In this document: positions 22,978 through 28,431 of the stretch, one piece after another
How positions within the stretch are numbered: position 1 is the first letter of the stretch
Layout: each line of letters begins with the position of its first letter
Assembly (NCBI RefSeq): GCF_038096175.1
Contig: NZ_CP151099.1
Location: 4,631,484 to 4,695,483, forward strand
DNA: 64,000 nt
Reading direction: 5' to 3'
DNA from: Nostoc sp. UHCC 0302
GTDB lineage: Bacteria > Cyanobacteriota > Cyanobacteriia > Cyanobacteriales > Nostocaceae
The notes under the pieces: generated by a model
What the model saw: the letters and a program-made list of their open reading frames with translations, nothing else
The model's database searches: none
What the model was told of the DNA's origin: nothing
Program-made: the position numbers and the translations under genes

Positions 22978-23439
22978 TTAAGGCAAATATTTTTGTACTA
23001 CAGTCCAACCAGTTAAAGACACCCAGGCAAAGCCTACAAACAGAACAACATTTATACCAATATGTAAAGGTCTAGCCCAAAGTCGTCTGGCACGAATTTG
23101 CGTAGCACTCAAAGCAGACAGTAAAACTAACACTACCACTATTAACCCAGCTACTAAGTGAGACGAGTGTCCTAAAGAACCAAAGTGTCCCAAAGTGCCA
23201 ACAATGCCAATTGCCAGCAGTAGCAGCACTAAACTAACCATGCTGATGCCGATTATATAGTGAAGCGATCGCGCCTTATTACTTCCACCGATAAATGAGA
23301 AAAATAAAGGGTACTCCTGCAAAGTTCTCGCCCGAAACATCAAAACGCCAGTGACAGCTAACATCAAATACGCCAACAGGGACAACCCCATCGACCAAGC
23401 GGCTATTTTCCATAACCAGAGAAAAGAAGGCAAATTCAT
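22978..23439 (-). CDS. DUF4079 membrane protein
   Basis: A 153-residue integral membrane protein with four hydrophobic helices, a pattern matching DUF4079, common in cyanobacteria and plant plastids (landmarks: MNLPSFLWLWKIAAWSMG; ARSLHYIIGISMVSLV; SHLVAGLIVVVLVLLSALSA; ARPLHIGINVVLFVGFAWVS). The conserved histidines in LHYIIG, SHLVAG and LHIGIN could bind a heme or metal. Function is unknown. The frame is open for a further 50 codons upstream, but those lie wholly within a heptamer tandem repeat, so the ATG at 23437-23439 is the real start. Confidence 0.85.
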   Translation of the reverse strand: MNLPSFLWLWKIAAWSMGLSLLAYLMLAVTGVLMFRARTLQEYPLFFSFIGGSNKARSLHYIIGISMVSLVLLLLAIGIVGTLGHFGSLGHSSHLVAGLIVVVLVLLSALSATQIRARRLWARPLHIGINVVLFVGFAWVSLTGWTVVQKYLP

Positions 23440-23494
23440 AATGATGATTTTAGACGGAAAGTGGAGGAGGGGGAGATGAGGGGGAATAAAAAAG

Positions 23495-23590
23495 GACAAT
23501 GACCAATGACCAATGACCAATGCCCAATAACCAATGCCCAATAACCAATGCCCAATGACCAATGACCAATAACCAATGACAAATAACAAA
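23495..23590. repeat. Heptamer tandem repeat (CCAATGA / CCAATAA / CCAATGC)
   Basis: Some 13 heptamers with the core CCAAT(G/A)(A/C) run through the spacer before the DUF4079 gene. This is a short tandemly repeated sequence (STRR) of the kind long known in filamentous cyanobacteria. Read on the minus strand it makes an artificial hydrophobic reading frame (IGHWSLGIGYW-like) that must not be taken for coding sequence. Confidence 0.9.
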
Positions 23591-23649: not shown

Positions 23650-24045
23650 TTAATCAACTGATGCGAAACCAGCAACTTGTAAGGGTTTTGTACTATCTCC
23701 AGCTTTTGTATTAATTGTTTGTACCAATGGTTTGGTATTAATCTGGTCTTTTACTGCTAATGAGTTTGTATCAAACTCATAACTGCCAGGTTCTTCGAGC
23801 ATAAGGCGCTCACATGGAATCCTATCGGATAAAATTGCGCTTGCCATCATACCCGTATGAATCTCCATATTGGCTTTGAGTGGAGCTTCAAACACAAGGC
23901 GCTGCCCTGGAAAAACAACGCGTTCAAAGTACCAATTGGGAATATTGGAGATGCGAGCCACCTGTATTTTGCTCGTGGCATTAATATAGCAGCAGAGAAT
24001 CTTCCCCGATTGCTCAGGTGGTAGAGAGTCTAATATTTGAGCCAT
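23650..24045 (-). CDS. DUF1830 protein
   Basis: A 131-residue protein with the DUF1830 core in the first 90 residues: ILCCYINATSKIQVARI, then NIPNWYFERVVFPGQRLVFEA and ARLEVHTG-like ANMEIHTGMMASAIL. This family is restricted to cyanobacteria and its function is unknown; the CC pair near residue 18 is conserved. The C-terminal 40 residues (DTNSLAVKDQINTKPLVQTI) are polar and variable. It is monocistronic with a clear terminator at 23601-23620. Confidence 0.88.
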   Translation of the reverse strand: MAQILDSLPPEQSGKILCCYINATSKIQVARISNIPNWYFERVVFPGQRLVFEAPLKANMEIHTGMMASAILSDRIPCERLMLEEPGSYEFDTNSLAVKDQINTKPLVQTINTKAGDSTKPLQVAGFASVD

Positions 24046-24632: not shown

Positions 24633-24653
24633 ATGGAAGTTAAAACACGCACA

Positions 24654-26222
24654 ATGGAAAATCGAATTCTTTACGTTCGCCTTCCCTGTAACCCCATCTT
24701 TCCCATTGGGGTTATCTACCTGAGTGATCACGTTCACAAGTTATTTCCTGCAATCGAACAGCGGATTTTTGATTTGGGAACAGTGCCACCTTTAGACTAC
24801 GCCAAGGCGTTAGACCGTTGTATCGATGAATTCAAGCCCACGCTACTAGTCTATTCGTGGCGCGATATTCAAATTTATGCTCCTGTCGGTGGACGTGGTG
24901 GTAACCCGCTGCAAAACGCCTTTGAATTTTACTATGCCAAGAATCCCCTTTTAAAATTACGTGGGGGTTTGGGCGGGTTACGAATCTTCATCGCTTACTA
25001 CCAAGAGTTGTGGCGCAACCAAGCATTAATCAAACGCGGTTTAAAACGCGCCCAACAATATCACTCCGATGCGCGTGTAGTTGTGGGTGGTGGTGCTGTC
25101 AGCGTCTTTTACGAACAACTGGGCAAAAGCTTACCCCAACAGACAATTATTTCTGTGGGTGAAGGGGAAACTCTGCTGGAAAAACTTTTAAGTGGCAGAG
25201 AGTTTCGAGATGAACGCTGTTATGTTGTGGGAGAAAATCAACCACGACAGCGTTTGATCCACGAACAACCCACACCAATAGAGAAAACAGCTTGTAACTA
25301 CGACTATATCGAAAGTATCTGGCCGGAATTTAACTATTACCTCCAAGACCAAGACTTCTATATCGGCGTACAAACTAAGCGCGGTTGTCCCCACAATTGC
25401 TGTTATTGTGTCTACACAGTTGTTGAAGGTAAACAGGTACGCATCAATCCAGCAGATGAAGTTGTTGCTGAGATGCGCCAATTATATGATCGTGGTATTC
25501 GCAACTTCTGGTTTACCGACGCCCAATTCATCCCAGCGCGAAAATTTATCGATGATGCTGTAGAACTATTACAGAAAATCGTTGATTCGGGTATGACTGA
25601 TATCCACTGGGCAGCATACATTAGAGCCGATAACCTAACACCAGAGTTGTGTGAGTTGATGGCAAAAACCGGGATGAATTACTTTGAAATTGGTATTACC
25701 AGTGGTTCTCAAGAACTAGTACGGAAAATGCGGATGGGGTACAATCTGCGAACCGTCTTGCAAAACTGTCGCGACTTGAAAGCAGCTGGCTTCAACGATT
25801 TAGTTTCCGTCAATTACTCATTTAACGTCATTGACGAACGCCCCGAAACCATCCGCCAAACTATCGCCTATCATCGCGAACTAGAACGGATTTTTGGTGC
25901 AGATAAAGTTGAACCTGCCATATTCTTCATTGGGCTACAACCCCATACCCATTTAGAAGAATATGCTTTTAAAGAAGGCATCCTCAAACCTGGTTATGAT
26001 CCAATGAGCTTGATGCCGTGGACAGCTAAAAAACTTCTCTGGAATCCCGAACCCCTTGGTTCATTCTTTGGAGAAGTCTGCTTGCAAGCTTGGCAACAAA
26101 ACCCTAATGACTTCGGACGGGAAGTCATGAAAATCTTAGAAGAAAAACTGGGTTGTGCCGACTTAGAAGCCGCTCTTTGTGCGCCAATGGAAACAAAAAA
26201 CAAACAGTTAGCAGCTGTTTGA
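24654..26222 (+). CDS. Radical SAM protein (high-light acclimation type)
   Basis: A protein of 522 residues from the preferred ATG at 24654 (MENRILYVRLPCNP); another ATG lies seven codons upstream. The 4Fe-4S cluster motif CxxxCxxC is CPHNCCYC near residue 248. The N-terminal 200 residues resemble the cobalamin-binding domain of B12-dependent radical SAM enzymes (RVVVGGGAVS; SVGEGETLLEKLL). Cyanobacterial proteins of this length and pattern are annotated in databases as a photosystem II high-light acclimation radical SAM protein; I recall the name but cannot check it. The reaction is unknown. It is followed by the DICT gene 97 bases later on the same strand. Confidence 0.8.
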   Translation: MENRILYVRLPCNPIFPIGVIYLSDHVHKLFPAIEQRIFDLGTVPPLDYAKALDRCIDEFKPTLLVYSWRDIQIYAPVGGRGGNPLQNAFEFYYAKNPLLKLRGGLGGLRIFIAYYQELWRNQALIKRGLKRAQQYHSDARVVVGGGAVSVFYEQLGKSLPQQTIISVGEGETLLEKLLSGREFRDERCYVVGENQPRQRLIHEQPTPIEKTACNYDYIESIWPEFNYYLQDQDFYIGVQTKRGCPHNCCYCVYTVVEGKQVRINPADEVVAEMRQLYDRGIRNFWFTDAQFIPARKFIDDAVELLQKIVDSGMTDIHWAAYIRADNLTPELCELMAKTGMNYFEIGITSGSQELVRKMRMGYNLRTVLQNCRDLKAAGFNDLVSVNYSFNVIDERPETIRQTIAYHRELERIFGADKVEPAIFFIGLQPHTHLEEYAFKEGILKPGYDPMSLMPWTAKKLLWNPEPLGSFFGEVCLQAWQQNPNDFGREVMKILEEKLGCADLEAALCAPMETKNKQLAAV

Positions 26223-26319: not shown

Positions 26320-27717
26320 ATGTTAGAAGGTTCAATTCTACAACAGTTAGAAATAGCTCATCGCCATAGTACCAGGCCAATTCGATTTGGAGTGTACTAC
26401 AAAAATACCCTAGTTTCTCTTTGCCATGCCTTAGAAGACCACATCTTAACCAATGATGGTGAGCCTTTGGTCATCACAGCCTTTCAACAGGGCAAATGGT
26501 ATTTGCAAGAAGCTCAACGATATGCAGACATCGCCCAGCACAGCCACAAAATTGCCATCATGGCTGCCCTTGATTCTGGGTTTAGTGAACATTCTACTAG
26601 TCAACTAGACAACGTAGAGTTAGTAGGATTAAATCCAGATGATCCAGTAGCGCAAGAGTGGCATTTGATTATCCTGTCGCCAAACTACACAGCTATGGTA
26701 ATTTGTCAAGAGTTATCAGAAGCTGATTATGGCAGTACTGGAGTACCAACATCAGACTTAGAGCGTAAATTCTATGGATTGTGGACATTTGAGCCACAGT
26801 TAGTGCAAGAGACAGCACAAATAGCGATCGCCCACATTAAACAATACAATCCAGAATTAGCAGAAAAACTTACAGCATATAAACAAGAAATTGTACCATC
26901 TATTACCAGAGCTGAAAACTTGAGTGCAGTTGTCTCCCGCGTAGTAGATTACCTCCAAACTGGACAGGATAGTTTATCCTTACCCACAGCGCTTAGCCAA
27001 CAAGCCCTAGACCGTAACTTGGTTTCTAACGAAATCCAAGCATTTTTGCGGATGGCGCAACTGATGGATATGGCAGATGTCAACAATCCAATGGCAGCAA
27101 CGGAAGTAGTAGTACTTTCTGAAGCAATGGGACAGCTTTTGGATCTTCCGGCATGGCAGATTAAAAGATTGCGATTGGCAGCTTTACTGCATCGCATAGA
27201 TCCACTACAAAAAGCAGAAAGCGTCCTCGCACCTGGTACAGCTACACGCTATCAGGAAGATGCCCCTAGTACTCCCTTAACTTGTCCCTTAGTACCGGGG
27301 GCGCAAGTATTGCGAACTATGCCACGACTGCGAGCAGTTGCTCAAATAATTACTCACCAAACCGAGTGGTGGAATGGCACAGGGCAACCAGCAGGTTTAG
27401 CTGGAGATGAAATTCCCCTAGAGTCGAGAATGTTGTCATTATTGGCAGACTTTCAGTGGCGATTAAATCAGCGAAAATTGTCAAATCAGAGCCGAGAACA
27501 GATATTTACTGAAGCTTTGGATGAGTGCAGACAACAACAATCCACCCGCTTTGACCCTAAACTTGTAGATACCCTAGCTTTGTTAGTCATGGGCTTGCAG
27601 CAGGGACTCGACTTACCGCTAATGACACCCAAATTCAGCGCCGGTATTTGGCTACTTGATTCCCGATGGGATAGCCACAGCAAGACTAGTGAAGAGATTG
27701 GTAGTTACCCCAAATGA
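26320..27717 (+). CDS. DICT sensory domain protein with degenerate HD domain
   Basis: A 465-residue protein. Residues about 20-185 are a DICT domain (IRFGVYYKNTLVSLCHALED, QEWHLIILSPNYTAMVICQE, LERKFYGLWTF), a light- or phytochrome-associated sensory domain of cyanobacteria. Residues about 245-430 resemble an HD-GYP phosphodiesterase, but the catalytic residues are lost: LLHRID stands where LLHDIG is expected, and HQTEWWNGTGQP replaces the usual HExxDGxGYP. It is therefore probably a non-catalytic binding or scaffolding domain. The stop overlaps the start of the pentapeptide gene (ATGA), indicating translational coupling. Confidence 0.82.
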   Translation: MLEGSILQQLEIAHRHSTRPIRFGVYYKNTLVSLCHALEDHILTNDGEPLVITAFQQGKWYLQEAQRYADIAQHSHKIAIMAALDSGFSEHSTSQLDNVELVGLNPDDPVAQEWHLIILSPNYTAMVICQELSEADYGSTGVPTSDLERKFYGLWTFEPQLVQETAQIAIAHIKQYNPELAEKLTAYKQEIVPSITRAENLSAVVSRVVDYLQTGQDSLSLPTALSQQALDRNLVSNEIQAFLRMAQLMDMADVNNPMAATEVVVLSEAMGQLLDLPAWQIKRLRLAALLHRIDPLQKAESVLAPGTATRYQEDAPSTPLTCPLVPGAQVLRTMPRLRAVAQIITHQTEWWNGTGQPAGLAGDEIPLESRMLSLLADFQWRLNQRKLSNQSREQIFTEALDECRQQQSTRFDPKLVDTLALLVMGLQQGLDLPLMTPKFSAGIWLLDSRWDSHSKTSEEIGSYPK

Positions 27718-28352
27718 ATATTGAAGCCATTAGATTAGGAAAGCTAAAACAACTCCCAGGAGCCAATTTAGAAGACGAGGAACTCTCCCAACTTGATTTA
27801 AGCCGGATTAATCTGGCTGGCGCTACTCTTGTTGGGGCTAATTTCAATGCTTCCAAACTTGAAGGTGGGCATTTAGAGGGAGCGAACTTAATGGGGGCGA
27901 ACCTCCAAGAAGCTGACTTGCGGGCGAACCTGATGGGAGCAAACCTGATGCAAGCAGATTTAACAGGTGCTGACTTGCGGGGTAGCAACTTGCGGGGCGC
28001 TAACTTGATGGGAGCGAGACTCAGCGATGTATCCTTGGCGGGTGCTTTCTTGAGTGGCGCGAATTTGATGAACGTCAACTTACAAGGCGTGGACTTGCGA
28101 GGCGCTGACTTGCGGGGTGCAAACCTGACGGGGGCAAATCTCAAAGGTGCAGACTTGAGTCGCGCTGATTTGCAAGGGACTTTGTTGAGTGAAGCAAATC
28201 TCGAAGAAACTGACTTGCGGGGGGCGAATTTAGCAGGGGCGAATTTGACAGGGGCGAATTTGCTCTGTGCAGAGTTAGAAGGTGCAAATTTGAATGGCGT
28301 TAATTTGAATAAGGTATGTTTAGTGGGTACAGTGCTTGAGAGGGATTCGTAA
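27714..28352 (+). CDS. Pentapeptide-repeat protein
   Basis: A 212-residue protein of nearly continuous A(D/N)LxG pentapeptides from about residue 28 on, folding as a right-handed quadrilateral beta-helix. The register is broken at residues 67-70, where ADLR is followed directly by ANLMG. One residue is missing, as if one codon was deleted at 27923/27924. A second irregularity near residue 118 (GADLRGANLTG is regular) is absent, so the break is unique. The start overlaps the DICT gene stop. Pentapeptide proteins act as binding platforms or DNA mimics; the partner is unknown. No membrane segment is seen. Confidence 0.88.
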   Translation: MNIEAIRLGKLKQLPGANLEDEELSQLDLSRINLAGATLVGANFNASKLEGGHLEGANLMGANLQEADLRANLMGANLMQADLTGADLRGSNLRGANLMGARLSDVSLAGAFLSGANLMNVNLQGVDLRGADLRGANLTGANLKGADLSRADLQGTLLSEANLEETDLRGANLAGANLTGANLLCAELEGANLNGVNLNKVCLVGTVLERDS

Positions 28353-28401: not shown

Positions 28402-28431
28402 AGCGATCGCCTTTTATAAAAAGCGATCGCT
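28402..28431. repeat. Paired HIP1 hairpin
   Basis: Two HIP1 octamers (GCGATCGC at 28403-28410 and 28423-28430) form the arms of a 9-bp hairpin, AGCGATCGC/GCGATCGCT, between convergent genes. It may serve as a terminator, though no T-run follows. Confidence 0.55.

Follow-up and report, generated by a model that had tools for sequence, protein, structure and literature searches.

A cyanobacterial DICT protein with a degenerate HD-GYP domain and its co-occurring pentapeptide-repeat protein

Genes at the locus and loci compared

The stretch of DNA analysed in this work (referred to as the window) consists of 64,000 nt of the 9.6-Mb genome of Nostoc sp. UHCC 0302 (NZ_CP151099.1, positions 4,631,484-4,695,483). 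Three genes on its + strand are considered here, viz. one for a radical SAM/B12-binding protein (24633-26222), one for a protein of 465 aa combining DICT, CHASE6_C and HD_5 domains (26320-27717), which is referred to as DICT-HD, and one for a pentapeptide-repeat protein of 212 aa (27714-28352), which is abbreviated as PPR. The first of these proteins matches the NCBIfam model for the slr0320 family (NF045585, 'photosystem II high light acclimation radical SAM protein') with 1077.2 bits vs a cut-off of 775 bits over model positions 2-511 of 511, and 97 bp separate the end of its gene (26222) from the start of DICT-HD (26320). In DICT-HD, the Pfam domains DICT (7.6e-46, residues 5-131), CHASE6_C (2.4e-29, residues 146-219) and HD_5 (2.5e-24, residues 235-415) were identified, the match to DICT (PF10069) amounting to 155.7 bits vs a gathering cut-off of 23.8 and extending over model positions 2-128 of 129, and the pentapeptide repeats of PPR are matched at 2.1e-55. 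The stop codon of DICT-HD and the start codon of PPR overlap in an ATGA (27714-27717, + strand; caaATGAatattg). The two open reading frames, this overlap and the radical SAM gene 97 bases upstream all lie where a preliminary description of this DNA had placed them. An inverted repeat of 13 pairs (28402-28431), which consists of two GCGATCGC palindromes and is terminator-like on the - strand, is found 3' of the PPR gene.

The presence of DICT-HD was called at E <= 1e-60 in 291 genomes of the class, and 169 DICT-HD loci were brought together for comparison, viz. 30 loci from the search of these 291 genomes, 80 named contigs, which were the top-ranking ones among 203 confirmed, and 59 distant loci selected from the match list of the 291-genome search. 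The residue counts given below for DICT-HD are based on an alignment of the 169 members. The stretches in the 30-locus set extend 1.5 kb upstream only, and those used for comparing the neighbours of the 59 distant loci extend about 6 kb each way.

Catalytic residues and predicted fold of DICT-HD

The HD-GYP-like domain of DICT-HD comprises residues 235-425 (27022-27594, + strand), and its kinship to HD-GYP domains is indicated, besides the HD_5 match, by phmmer matches to 5z7c, 4r8z and 4mcw and by structural alignments of the HD part using VIA-align (Z 10.2 with DvhD and 8.7 with Bd1817), for which the AF2 model is poor. In the window protein, the HD diad reads H291-R292, with the histidine kept and the aspartate lost, and the GYP motif reads G355-Q356-P357, with the tyrosine lost and the G and P kept. 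The preliminary description had claimed the loss of both the HD pair and the GYP-type motif, and it had named intact HD residues in close homologues as the observation that would speak against it. The diad is intact in 0/169 loci, and the claim of its loss is thus borne out for the family as a whole. Position 291 is occupied by H in 154 loci, F in 11, Y in three and S in one, and position 292 by R in 168 loci, A in one and D in none. The GYP tyrosine is found in only seven loci, while G353, G355 and P357 are present in all 169.

The family was also aligned with three motif-keeping HD-GYP proteins of the sampled genomes (among them a protein encoded in the genome to which the window belongs), and nine landmarks of PmGH were followed in this alignment, viz. 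D222, K225, H189, H250, H276, H277, Y285, D305 and D308. None of the nine is kept in 157 of the 169 loci, one is kept in 10 and two are kept in two. In addition to the aspartate of the HD diad and the tyrosine of GYP, five more metal-ligand positions are altered. The position of H189 is A in 155/169 loci, that of H250 is P in 136, that of H276 is Q in 152, that of D308 is Q in 165 and that of K225 is P in 122. The position of D305 is A in 137/169, its placement possibly being off by one residue (82/169 have a D at position 377), and that of H277 is T or S in 137/169, one of the three comparison proteins also having Q at this place. Of the eight metal ligands of PmGH, six have been substituted in nearly every member, H221 is kept in 154/169, and E185 lies outside the comparison. 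The substitute residues are themselves highly conserved (R292 in 168, H346 in 166, E349 in 169, W351 in 169 and Q379 in 165 of the 169 loci), which argues that the domain is retained for something other than its old chemistry.

In the portion of PMC4159591 that deals with PmGH, an alanine in place of H189, D222, H250, H276, H277, K225 or D308 is reported to essentially abolish the activity or to cut it similarly, whereas altering the G, Y or P of the GYP motif hardly lowers it. Due to this tolerance, the loss of the GYP tyrosine should not by itself be interpreted as proof of inactivity. However, with no intact diad among the 169 loci and with every landmark missing from 157 of them, the HD-GYP domain of this family is, to judge from its residues, a conserved pseudoenzyme rather than a product of recent decay, and DICT-HD, although counted among the c-di-GMP phosphodiesterases, most likely hydrolyses nothing. 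The AF2 model of DICT-HD, for which 54 sequences from the set of 80 named relatives were used, is poor in the HD domain (mean pLDDT 59.9), and for this reason the geometry of the HD-GYP pocket is not readable from it.

The N-terminal sensor region (residues 1-178; 26320-26853, + strand) includes DICT and the start of CHASE6_C. The AF2 model of this region is of moderate confidence (pLDDT 58-94 per block of 10 residues), and its residues 18-178 aligned by VIA-align with PLD-like folds at Z 10.5-12.4 over 123-150 residues in the best 15 rows, which include TrmBL2 (12.4), TrmB (12.2), human PLD1 (12.0), NucT (11.7) and FAM83B (10.8). A Foldseek search with the DICT-HD model gave no match at E <= 0.001, its first row being Bd1817 (3tm8) at E 1.2e-3, and the statements on fold made here therefore rest on VIA-align. 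Because the aligned region spans DICT and the start of CHASE6_C, the model suggests that these two Pfam domains may form a single PLD-like domain. The HKD motif of PLD enzymes includes a lysine and an aspartate, and neither is conserved in this family, position 117 being I, M, V or L in 167/169 loci and position 122 being variable. Domains of the TrmB type bind ligands without catalysis. The likeness of DICT to the sugar-binding, PLD-like domain of TrmB is one of predicted fold. A membrane span is also unlikely in DICT-HD, as its hydropathy over 19 residues peaks at 1.16, and the CHASE6_C part is thus probably not extracellular. In the text available from PMC8846402, DICT and CHASE6_C are listed among the sensory domains lacking a discernible purpose.

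The C-terminal end of DICT-HD (residues 430-465) is a predicted low-confidence tail with pLDDT below 50. It contains a linear motif, P-K-x3-G-x-W-L-L-D (residues 437-447; 27628-27660, + strand), which is a candidate docking peptide and in which W444 is present in 157, K438 in 145 and G442 in 137 of the 169 loci.

Association of DICT-HD with PPR

Most of the cyanobacteria sampled carry DICT-HD (168/291 genomes of the class). A PPR gene in the same orientation, starting no more than about 300 bp downstream, was found, by a pentad criterion under which intervening short open reading frames were passed over, in 29/30, 80/80 and 54/59 loci of the three sets, i.e. in 163/169 in total. In the remaining six loci (L027, L121, L123, L141, L151 and L153), an orthologue is present elsewhere in the genome in every case, with family-profile scores of 298 bits in G190, 201 in G266, 267 in G003, 277 in G075, 289 in G133 and 309 in G155. 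In G190 (L027), it lies about 11 kb from DICT-HD.

When the window PPR was used as the query, matches at 2e-36 or better, a threshold chosen after the gap in the values had been seen, were found in 161 of the 168 genomes with DICT-HD and in 0/123 of the others. The family profile added orthologues in G005 (237 bits), G059 (194 bits) and G266 (201 bits), thereby raising the count from 161 to 164, and the four DICT-HD genomes in which the profile found none (G061, G086, G247 and G285) are drafts of 350-900 contigs. The same profile was applied to all 123 genomes lacking DICT-HD, with scoring confined to the 61 to 65 top preliminary candidates in those richest in pentapeptide proteins, and only G271 has an orthologue (198 bits), the other matches listed scoring at most 156 bits. 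PPR is thus present in 164/168 genomes with DICT-HD vs 1/123 without it, although kinship among the genomes inflates any test of such co-occurrence. In G271, whose assembly consists of 280 contigs, PPR is present without DICT-HD, and in G266, from the same genus, both genes are present at unlinked places. Of the negative genomes, 16 gave weak PPR matches (1e-30 to 2e-35) that might have been orthologues; except for that of G271, these were rejected, since their profile scores were those of the background.

The DICT-HD family profile likewise gave no full-length match in any of the 123 negative genomes, the best match (2.1e-54) covering positions 22-241. These matches, among which divergent forms of DICT-HD were looked for, proved to be different DICT proteins with lengths mostly between 650 and 740 aa. 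In 68 genomes from other classes of the phylum, no full-length DICT-HD was found (best E no better than 5.1e-32), and the matches listed from outside the class fall in the HD part (positions 166-449). No fusion of DICT-HD with PPR was seen among the matches listed in the 291-genome search, in which the longest open frame is of 586 aa.

Seven families contain genomes of both kinds, and in these DICT-HD and PPR are present or absent together. The numbers of genomes with both present and both absent are 16/1 in f1, 1/4 in f5 (plus the exception G271), 2/6 in f15, 5/1 in f24, 26/7 in f26, 31/1 in f34 (plus two with DICT-HD only) and 9/20 in f36. Large genomes are also found among those lacking the pair (viz. 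G222 of 8.1 Mb, which has 34 other PPR matches, and G252 of 7.0 Mb, which has 29), and its absence is therefore not a matter of genome size alone. Further, in a distance (mirror-tree) test covering 59 of 112 rows with radical SAM as the one control protein, the correlation between DICT-HD and PPR after removal of radical SAM was 0.69, a value reached in 0/999 permutations. The two remaining pairs gave 0.41 and 0.27. The pair is also present, with the motif H-R or F-R, in the four genomes G013, G033, G047 and G094 (L128, L136, L137 and L144). The first three of these may be Gloeobacter and the last Anthocerotibacter, and if this is so, the pair and its dead site would be placed at the base of the crown cyanobacteria.

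PPR itself is modelled by AF2 as a confident single solenoid (mean pLDDT 95.2), in which a step of four residues at 68-72 is seen both in the model and in the RANL motif of both locus groups, and its net charge is -9 (median -8 over 161 relatives). In an alignment of the 161 sequences of sufficient length, window PPR included, L163 and C185 are present in all 161, E164, L184 and G205 in 160, R70 and T206 in 159, and E165, N182 and C202 in 158. The signatures of the family are R70-A-N-L73, L163-E-E165, N182-L-L-C-A186, C202, G205 and T206, and its sequence, as far as such conservation can tell, is more than generic repeats.

The neighbours of DICT-HD behave differently from one another. In the 59 distant loci (the comparison leaving out two ORFs that lie antisense within the radical SAM gene and the PPR gene), PPR is retained in 54, radical SAM in 27, a DUF1830 gene in 19, the gene at 22978-23589 in 16, and most others in 0-6. 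The retention of PPR thus exceeds what chance would give. The radical SAM gene adjoins DICT-HD in the same orientation, at a distance of no more than 700 bp, in 26/30, 72/80 and 26/59 loci, and it scores over the cut-off in 262/291 genomes, including those lacking the pair. As it is near-universal, occurs also without the pair and is adjacent in just 26/59 distant loci, the radical SAM gene is read as a frequent, perhaps co-transcribed, neighbour and not as an obligate member. The preliminary description had joined all three genes into one unit and had proposed conserved gene order as its check. The order proved to be conserved for the most part; of the proposed unit, the association of DICT-HD with PPR has become stronger, whereas that with radical SAM has weakened. 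Its further suggestion that the overlapping stop and start cause the two proteins to be made in fixed ratio finds no support, because a start at -4 is available in 14/30, 64/80 and just 10/59 loci, i.e. mainly in closer relatives, and an overlap alone sets no ratio.

Proposed role and alternative explanations

We consider it rather probable that DICT-HD is a soluble, cytosolic receptor devoid of catalysis, whose output consists of binding or releasing its dedicated PPR. In such a scheme, the DICT domain would bind a signal, and the old HD-GYP pocket might perhaps bind a nucleotide or another ligand. Binding of the ligand would alter the shape of DICT-HD so that PPR is bound or released, with no hydrolysis taking place. 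The HD-GYP relic together with the tail would offer the binding face, and PPR would be the output protein that passes the effect on to a further target. The observations as a whole point to an old, undescribed two-protein switch. That the two proteins form a physical complex is also somewhat probable, and the best candidates for the contact would be the W-L motif of the DICT-HD tail (W444) and the near-invariant LEE/LLC patch of PPR, which, from its place in the pentads, would face outward. A broader proposal, which we put forward only tentatively, is that an ancient crown-cyanobacterial receptor made of a PLD-like DICT domain and an HD-GYP domain, both being ligand-sensing pseudoenzymes, controls a dedicated pentapeptide solenoid, and that the HD-GYP pocket may be a receptor for a cyclic dinucleotide. 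According to a 2021 source (PMC8682488), sequence similarity had not led to the identification of any c-di-GMP receptor in Anabaena.

It could alternatively be argued that DICT-HD is still a phosphodiesterase, in which a rearranged metal site (H291, H346, E349 and, in half of the loci, D377) acts on another substrate with PPR as its regulator. The near-invariance of H346 (166/169) and E349 (169/169) agrees with this, the poor AF2 model of the HD part leaves room for a rearranged active site, and the literature, as far as the consulted portions extend, contains statements of the same tendency: the Microcystis form is called a PDE, even though its motifs are reported as YR-GVP (PMC7063779), residues that have migrated may serve some pseudoenzymes (PMC10211241), and changes in GYP alone leave PmGH active (PMC4159591). 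However, six of the eight PmGH metal ligands together with K225 and D308 are replaced in nearly all members, and single changes at most of these positions stop PmGH (PMC4159591, the part on mutants), and a phosphodiesterase of this kind is for us quite improbable. Shared ancestry of an old operon, with no function in common, could also produce neighbouring genes, and all the DICT-HD genomes found do belong to one class, so that related genomes are not independent of each other. Yet the pair is kept in 6/6 cases where adjacency was lost, it is jointly absent in part of the seven families, and most other neighbours are gone from most of the distant loci, all of which makes descent alone a very improbable explanation.

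A further possibility is that the three genes form a single photosystem II or high-light unit, in which DICT-HD and PPR would sense light and control the radical SAM enzyme, whose role would be to modify a cofactor or a protein. The radical SAM gene is located directly upstream on the same strand more often than other neighbours are, the + strand between it and DICT-HD has no terminator-like site, and high light is reported to severely reduce the growth of the slr0320 mutant (PMC8065906). However, radical SAM is not found in the stretches of 32/59 distant loci, its occurrence in genomes lacking the pair has been noted above, and adjacency may reflect nothing but shared transcription; we regard such a unit as unlikely. 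Light had also entered the preliminary description, and what remains of that idea is the high-light phenotype of Slr0320 and the prediction that DICT acts in the light response (PMC8612252, as far as its text was available). Both are indirect, and a link of DICT-HD and PPR to light or to photosystem II acclimation, which would follow from them, is doubtful although conceivable.

Several known systems resemble DICT-HD or PPR in part. Bd1817, an unconventional HD-GYP protein of Bdellovibrio (3tm8), has the HD-GYP fold but no c-di-GMP PDE activity, and it has lost the GYP tyrosine; it contains, however, a di-iron centre, and the HD diad belongs to its metal-binding residues (PMC4159591, the section on Bd1817), whereas in DICT-HD the D is replaced by R and most other ligands are also replaced. 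A DICT-HD-GYP protein from Microcystis shares the architecture and the degenerate HD-GYP of DICT-HD, and its published motif, YR ... EFExxDGxGVP, is present in L121 of G266, a member of the DICT-HD family; this protein is counted as a phosphodiesterase, and the word 'pentapeptide' is absent from the main text (PMC7063779). Thus, the earlier view that the system had not been described holds for the pairing and not for the degenerate motif, which was already known from Microcystis: in the literature searched, with most subscription journals and all bioRxiv preprints outside its scope, we found no description of the pairing of DICT-HD with PPR and no work joining pentapeptide repeats, HD-GYP and cyanobacteria.

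With regard to PPR, HetL (3du1) is among the closest solved structures and is likewise a single-domain pentapeptide solenoid, and it binds another protein, HetR, this being called the second known PPR complex in the part of PMC7476756 that was available. However, PPR scores 137.8 bits vs the NCBIfam cut-off of 260 for HetL, and it has its own signatures and its own partner gene. The gyrase-binding proteins MfpA and Qnr resemble it in the pentapeptide solenoid and the negative net charge, and its scores again lie below the Qnr/MfpA cut-offs (73.6 vs 240 and 68.5 vs 360 bits). The Alr5209 family model gives 127.3 vs 125 bits, but this is a repeat model of 113 positions matched by three stretches, and repeats can inflate such a score. 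All4303 of Anabaena, a protein of 213 aa that came into consideration as a counterpart of PPR, also interacts with HetR, and Nostoc PCC 7120 has 31 pentapeptide proteins besides HetL (PMC7476756, same part). A different PPR module is the subject of PMC5862535, where DICT is not named in the text available, and AM1_0882 of Acaryochloris (PMC11633204, also available in part) could not be linked to the DICT-HD/PPR family.

Cyanobacteria have many pentapeptide proteins, of which partners are known for very few (PMC7476756, as above). The tie of one PPR to one receptor by near-obligate co-occurrence makes partner and function testable at once. The finding also questions the annotation of DICT-HD as a c-di-GMP phosphodiesterase, and should a nucleotide still be bound in the old pocket, a receptor would have been found in organisms whose receptors have proved hard to recognise.

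Some minor observations concern other genes. A second DICT protein, mostly of 650-740 aa and seen at L002, L173 and other loci, occurs also in many genomes lacking DICT-HD, and the one in the window's own genome (L002) appears, by eye, to consist of DICT, GAF and a histidine kinase. The DUF1830 gene (23650-24045) and a further gene on the opposite strand, at 22978-23589, are found near DICT-HD more often than the other neighbours of the pair except radical SAM. As listed, the open reading frame at 22978-23589 (- strand) opens with a low-complexity stretch (VIGYWSLVIGHW ...), and because stretches of this kind are common in Nostoc intergenic DNA, its real start probably lies further in.
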